Source: Halostella pelagica
Lineage (GTDB): Archaea > Halobacteriota > Halobacteria > Halobacteriales > Natronoarchaeaceae
Length of the DNA stretch: 64,000 bases
Reading direction: 5' to 3'
Assembly (NCBI GenBank): GCA_005954745.1
Contig: CP040678.1
Location: 2,728,001-2,792,000 of the forward strand
A program made the translations under genes and the position numbers. Every line of letters begins with the position of its first letter. Position 1 is the stretch's first letter. Under the pieces are notes generated by a model. The model had not been told where the DNA came from. It ran no database searches and was given only the letters and a program-made list of their open reading frames with translations. Positions 4,771 through 35,133 of the stretch are shown one piece after another.

Positions 4771-5439
4771 TCAGACGGAAGACCTGTGCAGTTGCTCGGC
4801 CAGTCGCTCCCCCTCGACGAACGGCGTTTCGGTCCGTCGGCCGTAGCCGCGGGCGTCCTCGGGGCTGAGCGCGTCGCCGGTTTCGTCGTCTAACATTTCG
4901 CAGACGACTGCCGCCGGCGTGCGGTCAGCGGCGAGCGCCAGCGCGACCGCGTATTCGGTGTGGCCGCGGCGGTCGGCCAGGAGGTCGGGGGCGGCCCGCA
5001 GCAGGTGAACGTGGCCGGGCGAGCGGAACGTCTCGGCGAAATCGACGCGTTCGGGGTCGGCGGCCGCCGCCGCGAGTTCGGTGATAGTCAGCGCGCGGTC
5101 GTTGTCCGTGATGCCCGTGTAGGTGTCGCGGTGGTTCACGGTCAGCGAGAACGACGACCGATCGTCGTAGCCGAGTTCGTGGTCGGCCGCGACGGGATGA
5201 TCGACTGCGGACGCGAAAAAGGGGAGGTCGAACGCTCGCGCGATGTCGTCGGACAGCGCGACGCAGACGAGACCACCGGCGTCGTTTCGCATGCGAGCCA
5301 CCGCCTCGGACGTGACGGCGTCGGCCGGGTAAACGATATCCGTCTCCCCCTCGCGGTCGGCGGCGTCGTGGATCAGAACGGGGTCGCCGGTTCGAAACGC
5401 TTCCACGGCGTTGTCGACTGCACTCTGGCGGCGACTCAT
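4771..5439 (-). CDS. ribB: 3,4-dihydroxy-2-butanone 4-phosphate synthase
   Basis: RibB converts ribulose 5-phosphate to dihydroxybutanone phosphate plus formate, giving the four-carbon unit of the riboflavin xylene ring. The protein is 222 aa from the start [10 protein letters not shown]. The acidic metal/substrate loop [13 protein letters not shown] is at about 29-41. A histidine-rich [21 protein letters not shown] segment lies near 140-160. The start codon overlaps the rbkR stop (ATGA), so it is translationally coupled to its regulator-kinase gene. The reading frame stays open farther upstream, but that region codes for RbkR in another frame. Confidence 0.9.
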
Positions 5440-27805: not shown

Positions 27806-29038
27806 CTACGAACTGACGGTCGCGTTTATCGTCGTCGTCTCCGTGGAGACGCTGACGAGGTAGTACGAGCGTGGCTGTAGCGTCCACAACACCCCATCAG
27901 TGCCGGTCCGGCCGACCTCCTTCCCGTTTATTTCAACGACGCCGTTGACCGGGTCACCATCAGTAGTGGTGAGGTTGAACCGCATCGGACCGTTGTTCGG
28001 CGTTTTGTTTATCGTCAGGTTCAGGCCGTCTTTGGTCGTCGTCAAGGACCCAGAGTGCGGGAGTTCCACGAGTCGGAGGCGCTGTGATTCGCGGAACACC
28101 TCGCGCGTGTTGCCGTCGATGTAGGCCGAGACAGTCCCCTGTGAGTGTCCGATCGAGAGTCGGTACCGGCTTTCACTGATGCCACCGAAACTGATAGACG
28201 GGTTGTTAGAGAACGACCACGGGTAGAGTTCGGTCTGCGTGTACTCGTGTAGCGCGGACGTGTCGCCATCGAAGGTGTCGGACGTGTTTGCGTTGGTGTT
28301 GTCGAAGCGAACGGCCTCGCGCAGGTACTCGCCGTCTGCGATAGATTCGACGACGATGCCGTTCGAAGAGGCGACGACGTACGTTACGGTACTCCGCTGG
28401 TCCGCGGACCCGTCGTACACCCGGTCGAGTCGCTGTCTGACGGGAGAGCGGAGCATTTCGAGTTCGTCAGCGATGGTGGACCGACGGTCGCTCTCGGAGT
28501 AGTCCAAAAGCGACGACTCCAGTTGCTCGTGGTTGGTCAGTGTGTCGTCGAGCGTCTGAGAGCGGGCGTGGACGCTAGCCAGCGTCCGGAGCAGGTCGCT
28601 CTCGGATATCGAACCGTTGACGTATGCTCGAACCGCATTGCGTTCTTCCGACTTCAGCTGTTCAGTCCGCCGTTCGATATCGTCGAGCATCGCACTGGCG
28701 ACTGCGGACCGGCTAGCTGCCGAACTCGCCTTCGAGAACTGTGTTTGGAACGTTCTGTTTCGGAATCGCAACTCCATCCGGTTGTCCGCCTCTGTTAGCA
28801 CCTGTGACATATCAGTCCCGGAGGAAACGTGCGACGAGACGACGTTTCCGGTGGGACTCAATCTACTCGTTGTGTTGCCAGCCTCGTTTTCGTCCTGAGA
28901 CAGCGTCTCGACTGCCGGTCGATCATCGGGACCAACTACCTGTTCTCCTGGGGGTACGGTGTCGGTGGGAGGAACACCGGCAACCTGTCCCGGGACGGCG
29001 AGGAGGAGGACCAGGGCGACGGTCGTCAATCGCTTCAT
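27806..29038 (-). CDS. Secreted haloarchaeal protein of unknown function
   Basis: The protein is 410 aa from ATG at 29038 (a GTG at 29047 would add three residues). It has a signal peptide, MKRLTTVALVLLLAVPGQVAG, and many N-glycosylation sequons (for example NTTSR, NGSIS, NRTFQ, NTSDT, NATVSS). A helical region (about 80-200) precedes a beta-rich half ending in a PEGA-like carboxypeptidase-type repeat (VEINGKEVGRTGTDGVLWTL). There is no transmembrane anchor at the C-terminus. Its start faces a membrane-anchored HTH gene across a 190-bp promoter region, suggesting a signalling pair. Confidence 0.65.
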   Translation of the reverse strand: MKRLTTVALVLLLAVPGQVAGVPPTDTVPPGEQVVGPDDRPAVETLSQDENEAGNTTSRLSPTGNVVSSHVSSGTDMSQVLTEADNRMELRFRNRTFQTQFSKASSAASRSAVASAMLDDIERRTEQLKSEERNAVRAYVNGSISESDLLRTLASVHARSQTLDDTLTNHEQLESSLLDYSESDRRSTIADELEMLRSPVRQRLDRVYDGSADQRSTVTYVVASSNGIVVESIADGEYLREAVRFDNTNANTSDTFDGDTSALHEYTQTELYPWSFSNNPSISFGGISESRYRLSIGHSQGTVSAYIDGNTREVFRESQRLRLVELPHSGSLTTTKDGLNLTINKTPNNGPMRFNLTTTDGDPVNGVVEINGKEVGRTGTDGVLWTLQPRSYYLVSVSTETTTINATVSS

Positions 29039-30387: not shown

Positions 30388-30422
30388 AACGAGTGAGTCG
30401 CCGACCTTGTCAGGCACTCGTT
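30388..30422 (+). terminator. 8-bp inverted repeat after HTH gene
   Basis: AACGAGTG (30388-30395) and CACTCGTT (30415-30422) are perfect inverted repeats with a 19-nt loop, starting just after the stop at 30384. It is a probable terminator, although no T-run follows. Confidence 0.35.
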
Positions 30423-30461
30423 CCAGAAACACCGTCTTCGTACTCTTGCGTTTCGAAAACG

Positions 30462-30467
30462 TTTATC
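30462..30467 (+). promoter_or_regulatory. TATA box for etfBA
   Basis: TTTATC within AAAACGTTTATCTCAC lies 27-32 nt before the etfB ATG at 30494, consistent with a leaderless or near-leaderless transcript. Confidence 0.5.
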
Positions 30468-30493
30468 TCACAGAGGGTAGAACCACTCCGACG

Positions 30494-31285
30494 ATGAAGG
30501 TTCTCGTAACGGTAAAGGAGGTCGCCGAGGTTCAGGACGACTTCGAGATCGAGGGGACCGAGATCGGATCGCAGTACCTCGACTACGATTTGAACGAGTG
30601 GGACGACTACGCGATCGAAGAGGGCGTCCAGATAAGCGAAAACGTAGACGACGTGGAGGTGGTGACCGTCACCATCGGCCCCGAGCGCAGCGACGAGACG
30701 ATCCGCATGGCGCTTGCGAAAGGCGCGGACCGTGCCGTCCGCGTCTGGGACGAGGCACTCGCAGAGGCGGACCTGCTGGACGTGGGCGCGAAAGTACAAC
30801 TCCTGCGCGCCGTCGTCGAGGAGGAGGAACCCGACCTGATCCTCTCCGGCGTTCAGGCTGGCGACGACGCCTTCGGCGCGACGGGCGTAGCGCTCGCGGA
30901 CGCCATCGACTTCGAGTGGGCCGCAGTCGTCAACCACCTCGACTTCGACGCGGACGAGAGCGTGGCGCACGTTCACCGCGAACTCGAAGGCGGCGTCGAC
31001 GAGGTGACTGACGTGGAGACCCCCGCGGTACTGACGATCCAGACTGGTATCAACGAACCGCGGTACGCCAGCCTGCGCGGCATCCGGCAGGCCCAGAGCA
31101 AGGAGATCGCCCCGATGGACCTCGACGACCTCGGCCTGTCCCCGGCCGACGTCGAGAGCGACCTGGCGTTGACCGGGATGTACGAACCCGAGACCGAAAG
31201 CGACGCGACGTACTTCGAGGGAAGTCCCGAGGAGGAGGCCTCACAGCTCGGTGACGTTCTCCGCGAGAAGGGGGTGAGCCAATGA
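30494..31285 (+). CDS. etfB: Electron transfer flavoprotein subunit beta
   Basis: EtfB with EtfA carries electrons from acyl-CoA and related dehydrogenases toward the quinone pool. The 263-aa protein starts MKVLVTVKEVAEVQDDFEIE and has the AMP/FAD-site region DLILSGVQAGDDAFGATGVALAD (about 115-137), followed by LTIQTGINEPRYASLRGI near 183-200. Length and order (B then A, ATGA overlap) are typical. The upstream in-frame codons are ignored because the promoter lies inside them. No fixC/fixX (ETF-quinone oxidoreductase) genes follow here. Confidence 0.93.
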   Translation: MKVLVTVKEVAEVQDDFEIEGTEIGSQYLDYDLNEWDDYAIEEGVQISENVDDVEVVTVTIGPERSDETIRMALAKGADRAVRVWDEALAEADLLDVGAKVQLLRAVVEEEEPDLILSGVQAGDDAFGATGVALADAIDFEWAAVVNHLDFDADESVAHVHRELEGGVDEVTDVETPAVLTIQTGINEPRYASLRGIRQAQSKEIAPMDLDDLGLSPADVESDLALTGMYEPETESDATYFEGSPEEEASQLGDVLREKGVSQ

Positions 31286-32241
31286 CGAACGTTCTCGCCG
31301 TCGCGGAACACCGCCGCGGCGACCTGCGCGACGTGAGCTACGAGGCGATCACGGCCGGCCGCGAACTCGCCGACGAAGCCGGCGGAGAGCTTCACGTCGC
31401 CGTGATAAGCGGCGATACCGACGAGTTCGCGGAGCGTCTGAACCGCGAGGGCGTCGACCGGGTCCACACGGTCGACTACGGGGAGGAGTTCAACCACGAC
31501 GTGTACCACCAGGCAGTCACGCAACTGTTCGACGCCGTCGACGCCGGCTATCTCCTCACACCGAACAGCGTCAACGCCCTGGACTACGTCCCCGCCGCGG
31601 CGAACGCGCTCGACCTTCCGGTCGTGACGGACGTCATCGATCTGGACGGCGGCGACGAGAGCCTCGTCGCCACCCGGGAGATGTACGGCTCGAAAGTCGA
31701 GACGACGACGGAACTGGACACCGGCCGGGCCGCGGTCACCATCCGCGGCGGCGAGTGGCCTGCGACCGAGGACGGCGGCGACGCCGCAGTCGAATCTTTC
31801 GACGCCGACATCGACGAATCCGCGGTGCGGTCGACCGTGACCGGCTTCGAGGAGGCCGGCGGCGGCGACGTCGACATCAGCGACGCGGACGTTCTCGTCA
31901 GCGTCGGCCGCGGTATCGAGGAGGAGGAGAACCTCGACCTCATCTTCGACCTCGCCGACGCGCTGGACGCCACCGTCTCCTCGTCGCGACCGATCGTCGA
32001 CAACGACTGGCTGCCGGCGAACCGGCAGGTCGGCCAATCTGGGAAGGTCGTTACCCCCGACGTGTACATCGCCATCGGTATCTCGGGCGCCGTCCAGCAC
32101 GTCGCCGGAATGAAAGGGAGCGACACCATCATCGCTATCAACACGGACCCCAACGCGCCTATCTTCGACCTGGCTGACTACGGCGTCGTCGATGACCTGT
32201 TCGACGTGGTGCCGGCGCTGATCGAGGAGTTCGGCGGGTAG
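31282..32241 (+). CDS. etfA: Electron transfer flavoprotein subunit alpha
   Basis: EtfA is the FAD-binding partner of EtfB. The 319-aa protein has the N-terminal domain (about 1-190) and the C-terminal FAD domain with the signature YIAIGISGAVQHVAGMKGSD at about 262-281. INTDPNAPIFDLADYGVVDD follows at about 286-305. It lacks the N-terminal ferredoxin extension found in some archaeal EtfA proteins. It is translationally coupled to etfB and followed by a strong terminator. Confidence 0.94.
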   Translation: MTNVLAVAEHRRGDLRDVSYEAITAGRELADEAGGELHVAVISGDTDEFAERLNREGVDRVHTVDYGEEFNHDVYHQAVTQLFDAVDAGYLLTPNSVNALDYVPAAANALDLPVVTDVIDLDGGDESLVATREMYGSKVETTTELDTGRAAVTIRGGEWPATEDGGDAAVESFDADIDESAVRSTVTGFEEAGGGDVDISDADVLVSVGRGIEEEENLDLIFDLADALDATVSSSRPIVDNDWLPANRQVGQSGKVVTPDVYIAIGISGAVQHVAGMKGSDTIIAINTDPNAPIFDLADYGVVDDLFDVVPALIEEFGG

Positions 32242-32328: not shown

Positions 32329-32650
32329 CCCCGTCTAGTTTCCCCGTTCAGTTTACTCACTACAGAAACCTACTGTTAAAAACGACAGTCGTGCACGGAG
32401 CCGACGCTGACCGGGGAATTCAACGGACAGCGGCGCGACATAACGTCGTATTCCGTCCGTCTCGTTGAACCGCGGTCTCGAAACTCGTCGAACAGTATCC
32501 GGAGTAACGGGACGCTACCGATAGCATTCTACCCATTTTACTGGAAAGGGTCATCTACCGCGGGCGTTTGACCAAACTACTGGCCTATTCGTTCGCGTTA
32601 CTGTTCACGCAATCGTGATACTTTCAGTTGGAACAACGGTGAACGACCGT

Positions 32651-32665
32651 CCCGGTTAATCCGGG
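32651..32665 (+). promoter_or_regulatory. Palindrome containing TATA-like sequence
   Basis: CCCGG and CCGGG flank TTAAT, 25-39 nt before the ATG at 32690. The centre is at the distance expected of a TATA box, so a dimeric protein binding the palindrome would block or alter promoter use. Promoter function is inference. Confidence 0.4.
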
Positions 32666-32689: not shown

Positions 32690-33646
32690 ATGGCACGACA
32701 AAACCAGGGTCGACAGCGAGGCGGCCGACACTCCGCACAGAAACAGCAGCGAGACGAACAGGGACAGTTCCAAGGGACACAGAGTGGTTCCCAGCAGGGC
32801 CGCCAGAGCCAACGTGGCGGACAGCAACACGGTCAGCACCAGCAAGGCGGACAGCATCAGCAGGGCCAGGGCGGCCGCCAGACGCAGGGGCAGCGAGGGG
32901 AACACCAGCAACACCGACAGCACAGCGGACATCAGGGTACGCTGCAAGGACAGGGTCAGCATCAGGGTGGACGCCAGCAGGATCAGCACGGCCAACAGGA
33001 TGGCGGTCAGCAGCAACGGCACGGCGGCCGTCACGAAGGCCAGCATCAGCAACACAGCGGTCGGCGGAGCCAGCAGACCGGCGGGCACTCCGGCGGTCGG
33101 ACGAGTCAACGACAGGGACGACAGAGTCAGCAGCATCAGCAAAGCGGCCGACAACGCGGTAGTCAGCAGGGCCAGCGGCATCAGCAAGGTAGCCAGCATC
33201 AGCAGGGTCAGCGGGGTCAGATGGGCCAAGGCCGGCAGGGCCAGCAGCACGGCCAACACCAGCAGGGCGGTCGCCAGCGCGGCGGTCAGCAAGGTCGGCG
33301 CAGTCAGACTGGCCAACAGAGTCAGCAGCGACGCGGCGGACAGCAGCACGGACAGCGCCAGCAGAGTCAGCGCGGACAGATGGGGCAGCAGCACCGACAA
33401 CAGCACCAGCAGGGCGGCCAACAACATCGTGGCGCTCAGCAGGGCGGACGAATGGGACAGCGCCAGGGACGCCAGAGCGGTCAGCAGCGCCGCGGCGGAC
33501 AGCAGCACGAACAGCACCAGCAGGGTCAGCGAGGTAGTCAGCAGCAGGGCCAGCAGAGTCACCAGGGCGGTCAGACCCACCAGCGAAGACAGCAGCAGGG
33601 CCGACGGAGTCAGCAGGGCCAACACGGCGGCCAGCACCAGTACTGA
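32690..33646 (+). CDS. Low-complexity Gln/Gly/Arg/His-rich (RGG, prion-like) protein
   Basis: By hand count this 318-aa protein has about 124 Gln (39%), 75 Gly, 43 Arg, 30 His, only 7 Asp/Glu and 1 Lys, so it is strongly basic and disordered. It contains five RGG boxes and repeated motifs such as GQQHGQHQQGG and RGQMGQ. There is no signal peptide, membrane helix or folded domain. The first 35 residues are less repetitive and it ends HGGQHQY. I do not recognise a family. Composition resembles eukaryotic RGG/prion-like RNA-binding or condensate proteins; that is analogy only. The plus frame is chosen because the TATA-like palindrome and the terminator both fit it, though all frames here lack stops. 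Confidence 0.6.
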   Translation: MARQNQGRQRGGRHSAQKQQRDEQGQFQGTQSGSQQGRQSQRGGQQHGQHQQGGQHQQGQGGRQTQGQRGEHQQHRQHSGHQGTLQGQGQHQGGRQQDQHGQQDGGQQQRHGGRHEGQHQQHSGRRSQQTGGHSGGRTSQRQGRQSQQHQQSGRQRGSQQGQRHQQGSQHQQGQRGQMGQGRQGQQHGQHQQGGRQRGGQQGRRSQTGQQSQQRRGGQQHGQRQQSQRGQMGQQHRQQHQQGGQQHRGAQQGGRMGQRQGRQSGQQRRGGQQHEQHQQGQRGSQQQGQQSHQGGQTHQRRQQQGRRSQQGQHGGQHQY

Positions 33647-33722: not shown

Positions 33723-33735
33723 AAAGCGCTTTTTT
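33723..33735 (+). terminator. Palindrome with T-run after low-complexity gene
   Basis: AAAGCGCTTT (33723-33732) is a perfect palindrome running into TTTTTT (33730-33735) on the plus strand, between the convergent low-complexity and GlpA-like genes. The T-run favours termination of plus-strand transcripts. Confidence 0.5.
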
Positions 33736-33742
33736 CAGTCGA

Positions 33743-34978
33743 TCAGTGGCTCGACGACCGCTGTGCATCCTCGTCAGCCGGTGAGAGCGCGTGGAATTCG
33801 CGGATCGCGTCCTGAACTGCACCGGGACCCCCAGCGCCGTACAGCGGTTCGTCCGGGGTGCGACACGGTACGTCGACACCGAACCGACCGCAGACGTGGT
33901 CCGCCACGGCCTCGGCCATGAGGCGGTGAGTCGTGAGTTTACCGCCGACGACCGTGGTGAACCCGTCCAGACCGTCGCGGTCGGCGTGGTCGAGGACGAA
34001 AAACCCCCGAGAGATGCCGCGTTCGCCCTCGCGTTCGTCCTCGTCCGGGCCGTACAGCGGTCTGACCCCCCAGTACGTCCGTTCGACGGCGGCGTCGGCG
34101 ACCGGTGGGAGCATCCGGGCGCACTCCTCGATACAGCGCTCTACCTCCCAGCGCTCCTCGTCGAACTCGTCGGGGTCGTCCACGGCGACGCTCGTCGTGC
34201 CGAGGACGACCTCGCCCTCGTGGGGGACCACGATGTCGCCGTCGGCGGGCGGACGACAGCGGTTCAGGACGACCGGTAGGTCCGGGTAGTCGACGGCGAC
34301 CATCACGCCCTTCGCCGGGCGCATCGCTACGTCGACGGCCGCCATGTCAGCGACCTCTCCGGCCCACGCGCCGGCGGCGTTGACGACGTGGTCCGCGCGG
34401 ATCGTCTCCTCGCCGTCGTCAGTCTCGACGCGCGCTCCGACGACGGCGTCGTTTTCGACCAGTAGATCCCGCACCGGGGCGTTCGGTCGGATCGTCGCGC
34501 CGTGCTCGCGGGCGCTCGCCGCCGTGGCCGCGACGAGTCGCGACGGGTAGATCACGCCGTCCGGAACCACCATGATGCGCTCGGCGTCGTCGGTCAGGTC
34601 CGGCACCTCGTCCCCGACTTCGTCGGGCGTACGCACCTCGGCGGGGACGTTCAGGTCGCGACAGGCGGAGAGTTTCTCGTCGAAGTACGCCGGGTCGTCG
34701 TCAGTCAGTTGCACGAAGTAGCCGCAGTCGCACCCGATGCAGTGCCCGGCGATGTCCCGCAAGATTCGGTTTTCCCGGATGCACTCACTGGCCCCGCTCG
34801 GGTCGTTCTCTGCGTAGCGCGCGCCGCTGTGGAGGAGGCCGTGCGACCGGCCGGTCGTCCCGCTCCCGAGGCCGCCACGGTCGACCAGCGTCACGTCGAC
34901 GCCGCGCATCGCGAGGTCCCGGGCGGTTCCGACGCCGGTGCCGCCGCCGCCGACCACGAGCGCGTGTGAACTGTCCAT
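33743..34978 (-). CDS. GlpA-like FAD-dependent glycerol-3-phosphate dehydrogenase
   Basis: This 411-aa flavoprotein of the DAO/GlpA family has the dinucleotide motif VVGGGGTGVGTARDL at about 8-22 and GSGTTGRSHGLLHSGARYAE at about 38-57. The C-terminal FAD contact is DGFTTVVGGKLTTHRLMAE at about 341-359. GlpA oxidises sn-glycerol 3-phosphate to dihydroxyacetone phosphate. Full GlpA carries an extra C-terminal Fe-S domain; this one stops before it, and no glpB, glpC or glycerol kinase is adjacent. A different 2-hydroxy substrate is therefore possible. The start is MDSSHALVVGG at 34978. Confidence 0.75.
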   Translation of the reverse strand: MDSSHALVVGGGGTGVGTARDLAMRGVDVTLVDRGGLGSGTTGRSHGLLHSGARYAENDPSGASECIRENRILRDIAGHCIGCDCGYFVQLTDDDPAYFDEKLSACRDLNVPAEVRTPDEVGDEVPDLTDDAERIMVVPDGVIYPSRLVAATAASAREHGATIRPNAPVRDLLVENDAVVGARVETDDGEETIRADHVVNAAGAWAGEVADMAAVDVAMRPAKGVMVAVDYPDLPVVLNRCRPPADGDIVVPHEGEVVLGTTSVAVDDPDEFDEERWEVERCIEECARMLPPVADAAVERTYWGVRPLYGPDEDEREGERGISRGFFVLDHADRDGLDGFTTVVGGKLTTHRLMAEAVADHVCGRFGVDVPCRTPDEPLYGAGGPGAVQDAIREFHALSPADEDAQRSSSH

Positions 34979-35133
34979 AGCCGTCGTACGGACGCCAGTG
35001 ACAAGAGTGGGCGGCCACAGAAAGACGGCGACGTGATCGAGCGCGACGGCGACGGGACGCCCCGCGCGCCGGCGGACGCCGGCAACACGCGATTCCGTCA
35101 CGTACTTGCGGGACCGGTCCTAACGCCGCAGTA

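Follow-up and report, generated by a model that had tools for sequence, protein, structure and literature searches.

Low-complexity proteins of unrelated folds share a predicted promoter class in the haloarchaeon Halostella pelagica

At least five genes of the Halostella pelagica genome encoding Q/G-rich low-complexity (LC) sequences share a predicted promoter class: LC1, a stand-alone LC protein encoded in the 64,000-nucleotide stretch of contig CP040678.1 analysed here (the window; Table 1), a second protein of this type (LC2), and three proteins in which LC sequence is appended to a Csp, a CBS or a phasin domain (Csp-LC, CBS-LC and phasin-LC). Because score comparisons for the phasin, Csp and CBS genes all agree, the promoter class tracks the LC sequence across unrelated folds, and not the fold itself. 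LC1 had been put forward from its sequence alone as a candidate for an undescribed system (hereafter, the sequence-only reading), and it does look like part of an undescribed co-regulated assembly, since its unusual promoter is common to at least four other LC proteins, a set that the sequence-only reading missed.

Table 1. Coordinates of the features at the LC1 locus and of two related LC genes; positions are those of the window unless another contig or locus is named.
Feature	Position	Strand	Remarks
ETF beta- and alpha-subunit genes (fixA/fixB, etfBA), upstream neighbours	30407..32241	+	Synteny anchor; outside the LC set
Upstream half of conserved block, GGAAC..CGG (approximate limits)	32627..32638	+	Five upstream regions compared by eye
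Promoter element of the LC gene set, GTGAACGACCGTCCCGGTTAATCC, with TATA-like GGTTAATCC	32639..32662	+	Matrix rank 1
LC1, stand-alone low-complexity Q/G/R/H-rich protein	32690..33646	+	318 aa, ATG...TGA, C-terminal Tyr
Oligo-T run, possible terminator	33731..33737 (approx.)	+	Between convergent genes; no conservation among orthologues
FAD-dependent oxidoreductase, GlpA-like, convergent downstream neighbour	33743..35101	-	PF01266, E=7.4e-60; outside the set
LC2	1708-2304 of plasmid locus L197	-	Near Csp-LC
CBS-LC, window genome	C1:324602-325624		Related promoter upstream

The sequence-only reading had described LC1 as a disordered, basic, Q/G/R-rich haloarchaeal protein with a promoter of its own, and this description holds for a gene that is kept across the genus; the coordinates, length, Q/G/R/H make-up, five RGG motifs and seven acidic residues that it listed were all exact on recount. 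Gln accounts for 39.0% of the residues, Gly for 23.6%, Arg for 13.5% and His for 9.4% (30 His). With 3 Asp, 4 Glu and a single Lys, the protein carries a net charge of +37; it lacks Cys, contains few Met and is extremely hydrophilic (GRAVY -2.5). Its sequence is of low complexity over the whole length and groups with the Q/G-rich proteins in a composition table of 28 set members. The label 'prion-like' fits it only loosely: beside the Q+N enrichment and few charged residues of yeast-type Q/N-rich prion domains, LC1 has abundant Gln but 0.3% Asn, about 16% charged residues and two aromatics. Neither Pfam nor NCBIfam (to E=1) nor the PDB yielded a match to LC1, LC1 contains no helical phasin domain, the KGG motif that marks the KGG/YciG family occurs zero times, and Rfam gave nothing above gathering at the locus.

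Synteny and the promoter were used to search for relatives because composition-corrected searches miss even a syntenic orthologue of LC1. A direct homology search across haloarchaeal genomes, as the sequence-only reading had proposed, found nothing in 59 relatives, phages and plasmids, and the orthologues emerged by synteny instead. The etfBA anchor, of which positions 31282-32241 match Pfam ETF / ETF_alpha, has orthologues in 58 of the 59 genomes searched; the downstream oxidoreductase scores below the TIGR03377 cutoff. Each of the other four genomes in the genus has a syntenic LC1 orthologue adjoining etfBA, in one case, the metagenome-assembled genome QS_9_68_17 (G003), with a disrupted frame. 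The LC open reading frames downstream of etfA in G001, G002 and G004 (356, 268 and 195 aa, respectively) have the same make-up, and each keeps the MAR start and the C-terminal Tyr. Residue order and length diverge fast, while composition, both termini and the promoter persist. In QS_9_68_17 the start and the promoter are intact and the frame is broken, which reflects either decay or (repeat) misassembly, the two being indistinguishable. An intact Q-rich open reading frame was absent from all 80 named haloarchaeal etfA loci, so that LC1 at the etf locus is a genus-level gene.

Judged from these comparisons, LC1 is confirmed as a real gene, more than a chance open frame. All internal repeats and all cross-species nucleotide matches of LC1 lie at offsets that are multiples of three, and 117 of the 193 mismatches in such matches fall on codon position 3 (binomial versus 1/3, p ~1e-14), a bias that is supportive, not decisive, because it partly reflects position-specific composition. 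Frame -3 is likewise stop-free in all four orthologues; coding in that frame is disfavoured because the most variable base would be its codon position 2. Coding on the minus strand or in another frame, an RNA gene, and a phage or plasmid origin were each considered and rejected. The short repeats of which the DNA was said to be made are borne out in part: there is a modest excess in the window species (10 internal nucleotide matches versus 2.3 +/- 2.1 after codon shuffling), and no clear excess over codon shuffling in G002 or G004. Such repeats, together with the fast change in length and order and the disrupted copy in QS_9_68_17, are what would be expected if LC1 were merely drifting triplet-rich DNA, a neutral or selfish open reading frame devoid of function. 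That explanation is the least probable that we weighed, as it is contradicted by a promoter at identical spacing in five species, by a frame kept over 195-356 codons with conserved N- and C-termini, by the bias of mismatches towards codon position 3, and by a promoter common to other LC genes.

The five RGG motifs of LC1 (at 10, 42, 197, 215 and 268; smallest gap 15) had been emphasised as a sign of RNA binding, and this emphasis finds no support. Their number is not conserved (5, 8, 1 and 3 among the orthologues), and a close pair of the di-/tri-RGG kind occurs solely in the G004 orthologue, none being paired in LC1 of the window. An RGG protein residing in an RNA granule would account for the basic, Arg/Gly-rich composition and for the RG and RGG motifs, but it is improbable, given the variable number and spacing of these motifs and a co-regulated set that includes neither an RNA-processing gene nor an RNA-binding fold; moreover, molar salt weakens charge-driven contacts, RNA binding among them.

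The promoter was evaluated with a 24-position matrix built from 15 sites of the Csp-LC, LC2 and CBS-LC genes, LC1 being left out. With this matrix the LC1 promoter ranks first of the 127,954 window positions (17.4 bits, the next reaching 13.2 bits) and scores 17.4-24.3 bits across five species; within 853 kb of haloarchaeal DNA from elsewhere, only the LC1 promoter of QS_9_68_17 exceeds 17 bits. The second-best window match (27808-27831, plus strand) lies inside a minus-strand gene and was judged to be due to chance. The distance from the end of the site to the ATG is exactly 27 nt in each of the five species, for which reason the LC1 transcript is probably leaderless. Matrix rank and constant spacing together confirm the claim that LC1 has its own promoter, and the upstream half of the conserved block is also common to the LC1 orthologues. 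A terminator had also been claimed; the oligo-T run that follows LC1 may be one, although it sits between convergent genes and lacks conservation.

The pattern AACRRYSGNNNCSGTTTAWYC, drawn partly from the very genes it retrieves, has three matches with at most one mismatch in the whole genome, those of LC2, LC1 and Csp-LC (control 0), and in G002 and G004 it also retrieves CBS-LC. A pattern taken from LC1 promoters only likewise matched upstream of the Csp-LC gene in three genomes of the genus. Some of the one-mismatch matches in other genomes are chance sites, and some belong to genes of surface proteins. In other families (G046, G024) the promoter class also lies upstream of secreted, mostly acidic surface proteins; it is therefore not exclusive to LC genes, and the regulon there seems to include envelope proteins. 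Two LC genes are without the promoter, CBS-LC of G008 (2.8 bits) and LC2 of G037 (1.0 bit). In G024 and G046 the promoter also occurs with disordered, charged proteins in which an RYGS motif is repeated, and a RYG[QSE]-like motif recurs in LC2, phasin-LC and LC1 of G004. On contig C6 of G001, identical promoter-like sites were observed at 4932 and 150519 within a segment present at both ends, perhaps the overlap of a circular plasmid.

Csp-LC, encoded on plasmid contig C4 of the window genome, consists of a four-helix core flanked by Q/G-rich tails, and its 155-residue query is 100% identical to a product of plasmid CP046868.1 (Salinibaculum litoreum HD8-45). The profile of the core matches the Csp3 structure PDB 5fig (E=5.8e-15), as well as 6q6b and 5arm, and the core is thus predicted to adopt the four-helix Csp fold, with TIGR04401 scoring below the NCBIfam cutoff. 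Most Cys of the tail-less paralogues are replaced, only three Cys columns being invariant in the alignment, and Csp-LC does not possess the Cys-lined core that stores Cu(I). When scored with a matrix devoid of Csp sites, the upstream regions of tailed Csp genes exceed those of tail-less ones (p=6e-6). LC2, the second free LC protein (MPHHQHEG...TGGRH), is encoded on the plasmid 2.6 kb from Csp-LC and has homologues in G001 and, more distantly related, in G037. The pattern QQGxQQG missed LC1 and retrieved this distant LC2, and ATGNCNCAYCAYCARCAY, run over 292 genomes of the class, found LC2 in G000 and G037 only, its remaining two matches being rejected as unrelated open reading frames. CBS-LC combines two CBS domains (E=3e-25) with a disordered Q/G/P/R-rich LC arm, and its promoter scores 20-26 bits in four of the five genomes with a matrix from which the CBS sites were removed. 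In overall charge, the folded proteins that carry LC tails range from neutral to mildly acidic. A C-terminal aromatic residue ends LC1 (Y), Csp-LC (W, Y or F) and CBS-LC (F or Y), and is absent from LC2, the phasins and Csp-LC of G014, G051 and G058.

The Csp-like fold, the 30 His of LC1 and the Met-rich tails of Csp-LC in G001 raise the question of copper buffering, in which His-rich LC1 and LC2 and the Met/His-rich tails would join the Csp bundle in binding Cu. This role is highly doubtful, though, as most Cys lining the Cu-storing bundle of the tail-less paralogues have been lost from Csp-LC, LC1 has neither Cys nor more than a few Met, and the phasin and CBS members would go unexplained.

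Phasin-LC, the fifth Q-rich gene, was recovered in a Gln-codon census of the genome and encodes a PhaP-like helical domain with a Q-rich LC tail. As the gene was found by composition alone and not by its promoter, its upstream region constitutes an independent test, and the site found there (22.9 bits) exceeds every window position. The helical domain is 33% identical over 66 aa (E=1e-5) to the product of a Haloferax larsenii gene located directly upstream of phaE-phaC; the genome of H. pelagica holds phaE-phaC with an ordinary phasin, and the phasin-LC gene lies outside this pha cluster. Relatives provided 30 phasin homologues for comparison. Five of these have Q/G-rich tails, a class set by eye after the sequences had been viewed (Q >=13%, G >=7%, no strongly acidic coiled coil); they have the five best upstream scores (22.9, 29.7, 11.6, 12.1 and 17.7 bits, with no score above 8.9 among the remaining 25), and the chance of five such proteins holding the top five ranks is 1/142,506. 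A phasin-LC of a distant family was also noted in G015, where the promoter had matched the pattern before the gene was recognised. Some phasin-domain proteins carry another type of tail on the same domain, a C-terminal helix-hairpin-helix-like segment.

A protective role has to be considered for the set, with stress-induced, disordered LC proteins of the hydrophilin type guarding other proteins or membranes against drying or osmotic shock, and the promoter being a stress promoter. The extreme hydrophilicity and high Gly content of LC1, its fast-evolving order under constant composition, and a promoter class that serves envelope proteins too would all suit such protectants. We nevertheless consider this role unlikely, since LC1 matches neither Pfam nor NCBIfam and lacks the KGG motif, and since it would be left unexplained why LC tails, all behind one promoter, are joined to the Csp, CBS and phasin domains.

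The reading that we prefer, at about even confidence, is that LC1 serves as the free, domain-less scaffold of a co-expressed LC assembly, either a granule coat or a condensate formed at high KCl. The haloarchaeal cytoplasm contains molar KCl, which would screen charge, and Arg/Gln-rich chains would tend toward self-association under such conditions, so that the LC segments of the different proteins may associate with each other. The folded parts would thereby be drawn into one body, comprising the oligomer-forming Csp bundle, the ligand-sensing CBS pair and the granule-binding phasin, with LC1 and LC2 acting as abundant free filler or linker. Arg-rich chains have been found to phase-separate at ~2.75 M KCl or NaCl through hydrophobic contacts (PMC9705477), and re-entrant behaviour of a related kind has been reported for several proteins, FUS among them (PMC7889641). 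Several observations speak against this scaffold reading. LC1 is nearly without aromatics, the residues that ordinarily act as strong stickers in eukaryotic condensates; it is very basic (+37), whereas the tailed proteins are neutral or mildly acidic; phasin-LC lies outside the pha cluster; the promoter class is not LC-exclusive; and two LC genes are without the promoter. Given the phasin member and the presence of PHA synthase genes, the surface of the PHA granule is the most specific first place to look. More tentatively, and with a lower probability than the scaffold itself, a promoter-defined programme could place interchangeable Q/G/R-rich LC segments on unrelated oligomeric folds and, together with free LC proteins, generate a membraneless body or granule coat tuned for phase separation in molar KCl, which would be the archaeal equivalent of the LC-network organelles of eukaryotes, defined by a single regulon.

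LC proteins, LC-tailed phasins, Csp proteins and CBS proteins are already known kinds, and in the limited open-access literature covered, no archaeal set of Q/G-rich LC genes linked by a promoter is described; archaeal proteomes rich in LC sequence are typified by acidic, Thr- and Val-rich segments (PMC8153834). A co-regulated Q/G/R-rich set in haloarchaea would offer a compact and genetically tractable test of regulated archaeal condensates, and would also probe the behaviour of such chains at molar salt and a possible LC mesh on PHA granules, with the promoter element providing a concrete handle for finding further members.

The closest layout to phasin-LC is that of the granule coat proteins PhaF and PhaM of Pseudomonas and Ralstonia, in which a phasin domain is followed by a basic low-complexity tail; PhaF binds both granule and DNA and is largely disordered unless bound (PMC5658603). 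Their tails consist of AAKP repeats, whereas that of phasin-LC is Q/G/P-rich, LC1 has no phasin domain, and the LC sequence described here is spread across several folds that have a single promoter class in common. Haloarchaeal PhaP, encoded next to phaE-phaC, has a helical domain homologous to that of phasin-LC, but proteins of the ordinary PhaP type are short, acidic and devoid of both the LC tail and such a promoter, and phasin-LC is encoded apart from the pha cluster. Csp-LC resembles the copper storage proteins Csp1/Csp3 (TIGR04401, PDB 5fig) in the profile of its core and differs from them in the loss of most Cys, the added Q/G-rich tails and the score below the NCBIfam cutoff. With KGG/YciG proteins, GsiB and LEA hydrophilins, LC1 has in common that it is Gly-rich, hydrophilic, disordered and composed of short repeated motifs, and it is set apart from them by the lack of KGG and of any family match, and by Gln and Arg in place of Lys/Glu. 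Finally, eukaryotic Q-rich/RGG condensate proteins display the same combination of a biased composition and a common LC type on unrelated folds; the set described here, in contrast, belongs to an archaeon living with molar KCl, has few aromatics and no RNA-binding domain, and is united by one promoter class.
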